This document shows positions 10,559 to 20,766 of a stretch of DNA of 21,598 nt, in pieces (the first letter of the stretch is position 1; each line of letters starts with the position of its first letter). The translations under genes were made by a program, and so were the position numbers. This DNA comes from a virus: IMG/VR virus record IMGVR_UViG_3300022214_000020, positions 1 through 21,598 of that record. The stretch is one strand, 5' to 3'. The notes beneath the pieces are model-generated. The model saw only the letters and a list, made by a program, of their open reading frames with translations. It ran no database searches and was not told where the DNA came from.

Positions 10559-10606
10559 ATAATTTTATTTGCATAAATGTAAAATTATTATTACATTTGT
10601 TTCAGG
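10559..10606 (+). promoter_or_regulatory. Bacteroidetes promoter P1 with shared operator
   Basis: The -33 TTTG is at 10568-10571 and the -7 TACATTTG at 10592-10599, separated by exactly 20 bases, a full match to the Bacteroidetes consensus. Between and over them lies TGTAAAATTATTATTACA (10578-10595), a TGTAA-N8-TTACA dyad. The wider element ATAATTTTA (10559-10567) and TAAAATTAT (10580-10588) forms another perfect 9-bp inverted repeat. Transcription would begin near 10605 and drive the cassette starting at 10769. The same arrangement recurs at 13778-13809 (leftward) and 19280-19310 (rightward). Confidence 0.85.
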
Positions 10607-13303: not shown

Positions 13304-13340
13304 AGGTGCTCCCCCATACAGGGAGCACCTTCTTTTGTTT
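13304..13340 (+). terminator. Strong intrinsic terminator ending the rightward cassette
   Basis: AGGTGCTCCC (13304-13313) and GGGAGCACCT (13321-13330) are exact reverse complements with a 7-base loop, followed by a T-rich tract (TTCTTTTGTTT). On the other strand no T-run follows the stem, so it mainly ends rightward transcription; the leftward gene at 13340-13603 converges on it and may share the stem as its 3' end. Confidence 0.9.
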
Positions 13341-13885: not shown

Positions 13886-14437
13886 CTAATTCATTTCAGG
13901 AAAAGGTAGAGCGGTTTGGGCTGTGAACCGTTTTGCCCTTACATCTTCAATGGTGTGCTCTACCTGCTTGAGTTTCTTTTTCAAATCGTTTACTTTTTGT
14001 GAAGCTTCTTCCATCTCATTTAATAACCCGATTTTCATTTCAATTAATTCCAGTTCGTATCTGTTTTCTTCCTGGTAAACTTCAACGAGTTTATACATTT
14101 CGAGCATTTGGGCACGAAGCCATACCATAAAGGCGTGTTGCTTTTTAATAGAGCCCTCTTTTCGACTTCTTTCGGATATGCTGGAAAGCCATGAAAGTAC
14201 ATCAAAAATCGGAAGACAGTTCATGTTTCTGACCTTATTATCGGCTGAACTACCCCTCCCTATGGTATATAGTTGACCGTAATATGGGTGGTTTTTTAAC
14301 CAACTGTCTTGCTTTTGAAAGTTCACATCAATGACCGTGCAAATCGTTTTTACGGGGATCATTCGGTGGCCTTCTTCGATTGGGCAAGGAATAGTCAATT
14401 CGTTGTAAGAAAGAGAATTTAGACTTAAATTTTTCAT
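13886..14437 (-). CDS. Phage antirepressor, P22_AR_N-type with coiled-coil tail
   Basis: A 183-residue protein. The first 110 residues resemble the P22 antirepressor N-terminal domain: IPVKTICTVIDVN, then DSWLKN-HPYYGQ (about 43-54), then NCLPIFDVLSWLSSI (about 73-87). After that comes a helical region and a clear coiled coil with heptad-like Leu/Glu/Lys pattern at about 120-165. Such proteins bind and inactivate a phage repressor or otherwise control the lysis/lysogeny choice. The gene is leftward and 5 bases behind the 124-residue gene upstream of it, so they form one operon. The segment 14207-14310 inside it has a diverged DNA copy at 14971-15074. The target repressor is not seen in the window. 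Confidence 0.75.
   Translation of the reverse strand: MKNLSLNSLSYNELTIPCPIEEGHRMIPVKTICTVIDVNFQKQDSWLKNHPYYGQLYTIGRGSSADNKVRNMNCLPIFDVLSWLSSISERSRKEGSIKKQHAFMVWLRAQMLEMYKLVEVYQEENRYELELIEMKIGLLNEMEEASQKVNDLKKKLKQVEHTIEDVRAKRFTAQTALPFPEMN
14207..14310. repeat. Segment of the antirepressor gene duplicated at 14971-15074
   Basis: This 104-base stretch and the 104-base stretch at 14971-15074 share three identical blocks in the same order: AATCGGAAGACAGTT at the left end, AGTTGACCGTAATAT in the middle, TTTTTTAACCAACTGTCTT at the right end. Between the blocks they differ strongly, with two single-base length changes that cancel out. Here it is coding (about residues 43-79 of the 183-residue protein, minus strand); the other copy is not in an intact gene. 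Confidence 0.85.
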
Positions 14438-18979: not shown

Positions 18980-19255
18980 ATGAAACGAGAGCAAACCACC
19001 CCGCGTATTTTGGTATTAAACCCTTATGACGGCAAGCATTACGATGTTACCCCGCTATTCGAGTACCTAAAAAAAGAAAAAACAACATTTAAAGAATTAT
19101 CCATTGACTGCCTGCAAGCCGGAGACACCATTCCACAGATCATAAATCCCGATCACACGGCCCATCTCCGCAATGTTCAAAACAGCCTTCACCTGCTTGC
19201 AGGACTAAGGGACACATTCAAGGCAATCAAGCACATTCCCAATAAAACTGGTTAA
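18980..19255 (+). CDS. Small protein, paralogue of the leftward gene at 13340-13603
   Basis: A 91-residue soluble protein. Residues about 10-83 align without gaps to the 87-residue protein encoded leftward at 13340-13603, with conserved NP-DG--YD--PLF near the start, QAGD-IPQ in the middle and LR--F-AI near the end (about 35 of 74 identical by eye). No membrane, signal or enzymatic motif is seen. It ends 16 bases before promoter P3; its own upstream region (18893-18979) holds no recognisable promoter or hairpin, only two TTATTAATT repeats. Function unknown. Confidence 0.7.
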   Translation: MKREQTTPRILVLNPYDGKHYDVTPLFEYLKKEKTTFKELSIDCLQAGDTIPQIINPDHTAHLRNVQNSLHLLAGLRDTFKAIKHIPNKTG

Positions 19256-19270
19256 TATTTGCTTTTTATG

Positions 19271-19317
19271 ATAATATTATTTGCATATGTGTAAATATAT
19301 TATTACATTGCGGCAGC
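19271..19317 (+). promoter_or_regulatory. Bacteroidetes-type promoter P3 with shared operator
   Basis: TTTG at 19280-19283, 20 bases, then TACATTG (19304-19310), one T short of the -7 consensus. TGTAAATATATTATTACA (19290-19307) is the third copy of the TGTAA-N8-TTACA dyad. The match to promoter P1 extends upstream: GATAATnTTATTTGCATA is common to both. It would transcribe the accessory genes from 19481 onward. Confidence 0.75.
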
Positions 19318-19385: not shown

Positions 19386-19453
19386 TAATGTTTCATGTGG
19401 ACACGCAGCGATAAGCTTAGAGGGTTTGAAGATTGCCGTGTTCCACAATATTA
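19386..19453 (+). promoter_or_regulatory. Composite intergenic module 1: box, stem-loop, RATATT box
   Basis: TAATGTTTCA (19386-19395), then a stem GTGGACACG (19397-19405) with CGTGTTCCAC (19437-19446, one bulged base), then AATATTA (19447-19453), then the ATG at 19481. The left arm and loop start (GTGGACACGCAGCG) closely match module 3 at 20142. Confidence 0.7.
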
Positions 19454-19480
19454 GACGACTTTTTTAAAATTAACTAAACA

Positions 19481-19798
19481 ATGAAAGGAAAATATTTAAT
19501 AACGACAGATTCGTGGTTTATTGCTCCAGATGGTGGCCAATATCAAGCCGTATGGGGTGACGTTGAAATTGTTCAGGATAGTTTTTTGGGTATTAAAACT
19601 AATAGTAGGTCTTCGAATTGGTTTGCCAAGGTCGGCAACAAAGAAGATCATGTGATAATATCAGGTTGCCAGATTCATTATGCAATAAAATGCAATAGTA
19701 AACCAAATGTTGGAATGTCGCCATGTTGGACTGAAAATGACGGCAAAATTGTTCAATATAAATCGCCATGTAAAATATATTTTCCCGATGTCGACTAA
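19481..19798 (+). CDS. Small protein with four cysteines, unknown
   Basis: A 105-residue protein with mixed polar/beta character and no membrane segment. The C-terminal half has four Cys (SGCQIHYAIKCNSKP, MSPCWTEN, YKSPCKIYF) that could bind a metal or form a fold core. The first part contains TTDSWFIAPDGGQYQAVWGD. No family recognised. It is the first gene after promoter P3 and its leader terminator, and the first of four genes preceded by the same stem-loop module, which suggests an accessory set with shared control. The AT-rich codon use here and in the next three genes is stronger than in the structural genes. Confidence 0.6.
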   Translation: MKGKYLITTDSWFIAPDGGQYQAVWGDVEIVQDSFLGIKTNSRSSNWFAKVGNKEDHVIISGCQIHYAIKCNSKPNVGMSPCWTENDGKIVQYKSPCKIYFPDVD

Positions 19799-19840
19799 TG
19801 TTCCAGATCTACCCGCCGGAATGGACGGGTAGCTGATATT
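19796..19840 (+). promoter_or_regulatory. Composite intergenic module 2
   Basis: TAATGTTCCA (19796-19805) starts on the stop codon of the preceding gene, then the stem CTACCCG (19809-19815) with CGGGTAG (19826-19832), then GATATT (19835-19840), then the ATG at 19875. The nearby TTGGTGGCTG (from 19839) resembles the repeat unit in the leader of the gene at 13603. Confidence 0.6.
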
Positions 19841-19874
19841 GGTGGCTGTATTTATTCACGTAAAAATAAAAATT

Positions 19875-20126
19875 ATGGATAATTTAAAAGGCAGAAATGG
19901 ACTAGCAAATTTAAAAGAATACAATGACCTTAAAAAAGCTAGTATTGGCTCTAAGTATAATCACAAAGGGGATGATACAGAATTTGTAGTGGCTGGATTT
20001 TGCGGATCAGACGGTATTTTACATCCTACGTTTGAAATTGCTAGAGATAAAAACGAGGGCGAAATAATTCGAATTGTTAATTCAAGGAATGGAATGAGTA
20101 GGTTAGAAGATGTGTTTTTTTTATAG
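19875..20126 (+). CDS. Small polar protein, unknown
   Basis: An 83-residue protein counted from the ATG at 19875; the frame extends upstream to a TTG at 19839, but that would place the start right behind the stem-loop and add a hydrophobic run out of character. The protein has KGRNGLANLKEYNDLKKASI near the start, then DTEFVVAGFCGSDGILHPTF and a charged helical end. No family recognised. It sits 76 bases after the preceding gene with the stem-loop module between. Confidence 0.55.
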   Translation: MDNLKGRNGLANLKEYNDLKKASIGSKYNHKGDDTEFVVAGFCGSDGILHPTFEIARDKNEGEIIRIVNSRNGMSRLEDVFFL

Positions 20127-20130
20127 CCAC

Positions 20131-20185
20131 TAATGTTCAAAGTGGAGACGCTGCGAAGACTTGAGTAGCGTTTTCCACGATATTA
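20131..20185 (+). promoter_or_regulatory. Composite intergenic module 3
   Basis: TAATGTTCAA (20131-20140), then the stem GTGGA-g-ACGCT (20142-20152) with AGCGT-tt-TCCAC (20167-20178), then GATATTA (20179-20185), then the ATG at 20218. The left arm and following bases (GTGGAGACGCTGCGA) are near-identical to module 1. Confidence 0.7.
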
Positions 20186-20217
20186 TAAAACGTGCATTGT
20201 TTGGCAAAAAAAAGAAC

Positions 20218-20721
20218 ATGGACTTATTTAATATAAACGATAACGGAGCAATATTTTCGGATGATGCCGATAGGGAATATAGATATTCGCTTTGGAGAAT
20301 TTGGGATGACAATTTACCAATGATAATGTTTATTGGGTTAAACCCATCCACTGCTAATGAAATTACAGATGATCCCACAATTCGTAGAGTTAAAAAATTT
20401 GCCAGTGATTGGGGGTATGGCGGAGTTTACATGCTCAATTTATTTGCTTATGTAACTCCATATCCAGAAGAATTAAGCAAATGCAACGATCCGGTTGCAG
20501 ACAACGACTTACATTTAAAACTGTTTGGTGAAATTTGCGATGAAATAATATTTGCATGGGGATCATTTGACGAAGCCAAAGAACGAGCAAAAAAAGTAAT
20601 TCAGATGTTCCCGAAAGCAAAAGCATTGATTATAAATAAAGACGGAACGCCACGCCATCCCCTTTACGTTAAAGGCGACACAATACCAGTTCCCTATGCG
20701 GGTTGGCTGCATGTTTTATAA
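20218..20721 (+). CDS. DUF1643 family protein
   Basis: A 167-residue protein counted from the ATG at 20218; the frame extends to a TTG at 20161 that lies inside the stem-loop and is unlikely. It has the landmarks of DUF1643: MFIGLNPSTANEITDDPTIR near residues 39-58, then GYGGVYMLNLFAY, then a WGS segment (IIFAWGSFDEAKERAKK) and a C-terminal GTPRHPLYV. This family is common on phages and mobile elements, and its biochemical role is not established to my knowledge. Here it is between an unknown gene and a PP-loop enzyme, each behind its own stem-loop module. Confidence 0.85.
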   Translation: MDLFNINDNGAIFSDDADREYRYSLWRIWDDNLPMIMFIGLNPSTANEITDDPTIRRVKKFASDWGYGGVYMLNLFAYVTPYPEELSKCNDPVADNDLHLKLFGEICDEIIFAWGSFDEAKERAKKVIQMFPKAKALIINKDGTPRHPLYVKGDTIPVPYAGWLHVL

Positions 20722-20766
20722 TGGTAAACTATATCCGCATTTTTAATTGGCGGATATAGAATATTA
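20719..20766 (+). promoter_or_regulatory. Composite intergenic module 4
   Basis: TAATGGTAAA (20719-20728, starting on the stop codon), directly followed by the stem CTATATCCGC (20729-20738) with GCGGATATAG (20750-20759), 10 perfect pairs, then AATATTA (20760-20766), then the ATG at 20807. A run of eight T (20779-20786 region) follows, so it might also work as an inefficient terminator. Confidence 0.65.

Follow-up and report, generated by a model that had tools for sequence, protein, structure and literature searches.

The DNA analysed here (hereafter the window) spans an entire IMG/VR record, which is labelled as virus and is 21,598 bases long. Since terminase, portal and tape measure proteins are among its open reading frames (Pfam/PHROGs), the fragment is part of a tailed phage. 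Its portal protein is distantly related (23‒25%) to those of Duneviridae of Cellulophaga and Flavobacterium and is also related to proteins encoded in Bacteroidota genomes, and a consensus scan revealed a promoter of the Bacteroidota form TTTG-N20-TAnnTTTG at 10568. This promoter and the kinship of the portal protein make a host within the Bacteroidota very probable. Four accessory genes lie on the plus strand. Gene 1 (19481‒19798, 105 aa; phrog_22562) has no assigned function, and gene 2 (19875‒20126, 83 aa) is an orphan, with no match in Pfam, PHROGs or a tblastn search of phage records. Gene 3 (20218‒20721) encodes a DUF1643 protein (Pfam E = 1e-39, in a scan begun at 20221). Gene 4 (20807‒21598), inside which the 3' end of the record falls, encodes a PAPS-reductase/ATP-pyrophosphatase-like protein (phrog_424); apart from PAPS reductases, it has a weak match to SspD, from the SspABCD defence system (E = 1e-8). 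The GC content of the four genes is 33‒38%, against 44% for the terminase and tape measure genes, and by this AT-richness they look acquired.

Four copies of a hairpin module, M1 to M4, occupy four successive gene junctions, all on the plus strand, exactly where a first-pass annotation of this DNA had placed them: M1 at 19386‒19453, M2 at 19796‒19841, M3 at 20131‒20185 and M4 at 20719‒20766. M2 and M4 start on the TAA stop codons of genes 1 and 3, respectively, so that the first box stands on the preceding stop codon in two cases, as had been claimed, and M3 lies 4 nt past the TAG stop codon of gene 2 (distances to the upstream stop of 0, 4 and 0 nt in M2, M3 and M4). From the module end to the next start codon there are 27, 33, 32 and 40 nt for M1 to M4; measured from the RATATT(A) box, the distances are 34, 40, 39 and 47 nt, in agreement with the 34‒47 originally given. 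Most other junctions of this phage consist of abutting or overlapping genes. The homologues of gene 1 in Ficleduovirus, Nekkelsvirus, Cellubavirus and Cebadecemvirus lie 1‒6 nt from the upstream gene, which leaves no space for a module, and the hairpin is absent from the sequence that we read upstream of the gene 4 homologues in two other records, L026 and L027. Since homologues of genes 1 and 4 occur without it, the hairpin goes with the arrangement in this phage and not with the genes themselves.

The module had been described as a box, a stem and a second box in series. Both boxes and the stem are present, but the boxes are not separate elements: TAATGTT and RATATTA are complementary to each other, with standard pairs in 27 of the 28 cells of the four-module alignment, and the module is therefore read best as one continuous hairpin with the boxes as its closing stem. 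This closing stem of seven pairs (TAATGTT / AATATTA in M1) is followed by a bulge YMA(N) of 3‒4 nt on the 5' side only and then by the inner stem, which is GTGGACACG with a bulged T in M1. The bulged T in the 3' arm is common to M1 and M3, which also have the sequence GTGGAnACGCnGCGA in common, as the first-pass annotation noted. CGC stands at positions 19‒21 in M1‒M3 and at 18‒20 in M4, which is one nucleotide shorter there. The weakest case is M4, with one mismatch in its 5' box; its membership rests on the boxes, a perfect 10-bp stem and its position. The closing stem of M4 can be extended to 20716‒20769.

These features are unlikely to have arisen by chance. The combination of the box pair and a stable inner stem occurs four times in the window and never in 200 dinucleotide shuffles, in which the box pair alone turns up 0.35 times per window. 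When the inner parts were compared with their own shuffles, the fractions folding equally well corresponded to p = 0.039, 0.012, 0.001 and <0.001 for M1 to M4. A blind search for repeated closed hairpins in 885 kb of phage and bacterial DNA, including the window, returned groups of at least three nowhere but in the window and at GC-rich loci, where matches of this kind come cheaply. The repeated hairpin is thus real and well-defined, in one phage fragment. A different repeat of 49 nt (76%) is found at 14248‒14296 and 15013‒15061; one copy falls within a minus-strand coding gene, and the other, noncoding copy is a near-perfect palindrome, TCAACTACCCCCCC-TAGTG-GGGGGGTAGTTGA.

In the four-module alignment, 96.6% of the cells are paired, compared with at most 59% for slid versions. 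The inner stem contains four pairs with changes on both sides, and its covariation score of 0.448 (shuffled mean 0.170) was reached by none of 500 shuffles. Thus, the proposal that structure is conserved where sequence is not holds for the inner stem; it fails for the closing stem, which is nearly invariant and, with no double change, beyond the reach of a covariation test. Support for the closing stem is indirect: pair 5-64 is G.U in all four modules, and pairs 1-68 and 7-62 differ between modules only as U-A to U.G. The computed probability of the closing-stem pairs in M1‒M3 is mostly about 0.5‒0.9 in the plus-strand RNA, against at most 0.07 in the minus-strand RNA and at most 0.19 in either DNA strand. 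Since its pairing depends on G.U wobbles, the closing stem is not expected to form in antisense RNA or in either strand of DNA, and its restriction to sense RNA favours a role at the level of the message over that of a promoter or recombination site. The modules are probably a sense-RNA element of the operon. The same computations give a closing-stem probability of 0.05 for M4 alone and 0.46 in its flanking context, and with 60 nt of flank added, rival pairings reduce the closing stems of M1 and M3 to about 0.12. Given these low values, the closing stem may need the help of a protein, or the boxes may be recognised as sequence.

A candidate array promoter, TTTG-N20-TACATTGC with a degenerate -7 element, is located on the plus strand at 19281‒19311, within a 57-nt repeat; its counterpart, 82% alike, carries the perfect Bacteroidota promoter at 10568, which the consensus scan picks while missing the degenerate copy. 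Between the candidate promoter and M1 lies an intrinsic terminator on the plus strand (19343‒19376), a 13-pair stem followed by TTTT. It contains AGTGGAGGCGC, close to AGTGGAGACGC of M3, and is possibly a rearranged module. A promoter-like element, TTTGCA...TGTAAA...TTATTACATT, on the Bacteroidota TTTG / TAnnTTTG plan, occurs three times (10541‒10602, plus; 13776‒13808, minus; 19253‒19311, plus). Similar small proteins, ILVTNPHDGHSYDLGPLF and ILVLNPYDGKHYDVTPLF, are encoded at 13340‒13603 (minus) and 18980‒19255 (plus), each adjoining one such element; for the protein at 18980‒19255, Pfam, PHROGs and phage records gave no match. As read from the sequence, terminators apparently also intervene between the promoters at 10568 and 13807 and their genes, and this promoter-then-terminator order at three elements suggests attenuation or antitermination.

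At the modules themselves, the consensus scan found no Bacteroidota promoter TTTG-N18-21-TAnnTTTG on the plus strand, and sigma-70-like matches are no more frequent than in shuffles. This is consistent with one shared transcript, and a single transcript across the array would be the simplest reading. We rejected the module as a host promoter for want of a consensus on the plus strand, as an intrinsic terminator (a GC-rich stem running directly into a T run) because no module is among the terminator-like sites listed, and as a tRNA-like element. In Rfam 15, the window has no match at the gathering score, and nothing sensible appears in the region at E values up to 10.

The search for relatives elsewhere yielded no further member. 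The strict M1/M3 pattern has two matches in IMG/VR, both due to chance. When relaxed box patterns were run against IMG/VR and 84,980 genomes, the matches listed were all due to chance, and none of those fetched folds alike. A covariance model (R1) applied to related viral records, named phages and about 1,100 Bacteroidota genomes, with stricter filters in searches of more than 40 genomes, gave no credible match at low power; its two best matches (30 and 29 bits) turned out to be a perfect palindrome whose ends differ and a site with poor pairing. A terminase profile search of genome contigs revealed no relatives, and blastn of M1 and M3 against phages returned nothing meaningful. In the Bacteroidota genome L220, positions 756‒801 form a palindrome, GAATAATGTAGAGACGCA-TAATTA-TGCGTCTCTACATTATTC, with an M3-like inner stem and different ends, which is probably an unrelated intergenic repeat. 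In a leave-one-out trial, the model of M1‒M3 recovered M4 at only 12.1 bits (E = 1.3), and the negative searches accordingly have low power for members as divergent as M4. The first-pass annotation had named a lack of further copies in related phages as evidence against its proposal; none has been found so far, in searches of this weak power. We know of no repeated intercistronic hairpin of such a plan in phages of Bacteroidota.

The best-studied parallel is the early operon of phage T7. All five T7 RNase III sites (R0.3, R0.5, R1, R1.1 and R1.3) fold as hairpins in our computations, and, with what we take to be their cut positions, four of them are cut 27‒35 nt ahead of the next start. R1.1, a 60-nt hairpin that has an asymmetric internal loop and comes from between genes 1.0 and 1.1, is cut by RNase III (PMC6121014). 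Like these sites, the modules are several intercistronic hairpins per operon, with an asymmetric bulge and the next start about 30 nt on. Unlike them, they lack T7-type sequence signals, their inner stem is not conserved in sequence, their bulge is one-sided (3‒4 nt in the 5' arm, versus 4/5 nt in R1.1), and their cleavage is only putative. Because plan and spacing resemble the T7 sites, we prefer intercistronic mRNA processing or insulation as the role of the modules, a tentative choice held with somewhat less than even confidence and based on anatomy and analogy. Among the four options of the first-pass annotation, the promoter is disfavoured, given the missing plus-strand consensus, sigma-70-like matches at shuffle level and conservation at the RNA level; processing, translation control and a protein-binding RNA are all still compatible, and processing or insulation fits the anatomy best.

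According to the processing reading, the modules would form a single family of hairpins that act in cis within the sense transcript of this Bacteroidota tailed phage's accessory operon. Every hairpin fills its intergenic gap, beginning at the upstream stop codon and leaving a leader of 27‒40 nt. A double-strand RNase of the RNase III type, from the host or the phage, would cut at or near the asymmetric bulge; alternatively, the hairpin may block 3'-5' decay and not be cut. The outcome would be one message per gene, its 3' end protected and its leader short and A-rich. The repetition and position of the hairpin, the compensatory inner-stem changes and, by computation, the sense-RNA polarity of the closing stem are observed; that the hairpins are transcribed, cut or bound at all, and by what, we infer. 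Several points weigh against processing. The total helix of a module is about 16‒19 bp, short for RNase III (about 20 bp in a T7-type site), and its AU-rich closing stem is weak, hardly forming in isolated M4 and losing to competing pairings in M1 and M3 once flanks are added. The near-invariant boxes are more like a sequence-recognised site than a generic RNase III substrate, and the missing T7-type signals and the one-sided bulge also count against it, as does the failure of the low-power searches to find a member in another phage.

The main rival is a protein-bound regulatory hairpin, in which a phage RNA-binding protein would read the closing stem and the YMA bulge and jointly control translation, stability or antitermination of the accessory genes. 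The invariant parts, namely the closing stem, the bulge A and the CGC about 9 nt up the stem, set in otherwise variable sequence, are typical of a protein-recognised hairpin, and the terminators that follow the candidate array promoter and, apparently, those at 10568 and 13807 would suit antitermination. However, we identified no candidate for such a protein in the fragment, the start codons are 27‒40 nt away and thus too distant for simple blocking of the start, and a single antitermination site per transcript would be enough; we regard this reading as rather unlikely. A peptide-based control, in which TAATG couples an ORF of 8‒12 codons to the upstream stop so that ribosomes open or close the hairpin, is more doubtful. 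The ATG within TAATG does open a short ORF in all four modules (MFHVDTQR, MFQIYPPEWTGS, MFKVETLRRLE and MVNYIRIFNWRI), and in M2 and M4 the TAA does terminate the upstream gene, but with TAATG given, ORFs of such a length are not uncommon (about 0.09 for all four by a rough estimate), the peptides have little in common, and a short ORF would not need the 3' box, which is also conserved. ESAS of cluster K mycobacteriophages are likewise repeated inverted repeats with a variable spacer, upstream of the starts of non-structural genes; they are 17-bp repeats with a consensus and a spacer of mostly 4‒13 bp, and they go with a 13-bp SAS located at the start codon (PMC3203893). The modules resemble them as repeated inverted repeats before start codons within one phage, but their arms vary between copies, only the ends are fixed, and the 13-bp SAS repeat (GGGATAGGAGCCC) was not seen on reading the module leaders.

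Readings at the DNA level are improbable. As a phage-specific promoter or DNA operator with the palindromic half-sites TAATGTT / TAATATY, the module would explain why the boxes are near inverted repeats and why one precedes every gene of the array, but the half-site spacing ranges from 32 to 54 bp, the stems between the half-sites vary in sequence yet stay paired, and no host-type promoter consensus is present there on the plus strand; of all the readings we give this one the least credence. Phages are known to carry arrays of integron attC sites (PMC9892861), and the modules resemble such attC or CALIN arrays in having a folded site after each accessory gene, one orientation and unrelated genes. 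However, neither GTTRRRY nor RYYYAAC matches any module with 10 nt of flank, in either orientation, and the structure favours the top strand as RNA, whereas attC folds in the bottom strand; there, the G.U pairs of the closing stem turn into A.C mismatches, and the computed fold, as DNA or RNA, retains the inner stem and loses the closing stem. Membership of the integron attC sites was rejected on the missing R boxes and this lost closing stem. An integron-like cassette array with non-attC recombination sites, its unit being a gene plus a hairpin and read from the promoter upstream of M1, would fit the four unrelated low-GC genes in one orientation with a candidate promoter just upstream, the attachment of each hairpin to the preceding gene's 3' end, and the homologues of genes 1 and 4 that lack the hairpin in other phages. 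Against it, no integron integrase or recombinase was noticed among the fragment ORFs scanned, and no second array with other genes was found. We consider such an array improbable, and it is similarly doubtful that gain, loss or shuffling of units, each made up of a gene with its 3' hairpin, takes place through sites unrelated to attC.

Gene control in Bacteroidota phages has been little studied. If the cassette reading were true, phages would have a further, new way of gathering accessory genes. If the preferred reading of mRNA processing is true, this phage would split its accessory operon into single-gene messages in a T7-like manner that arose independently.
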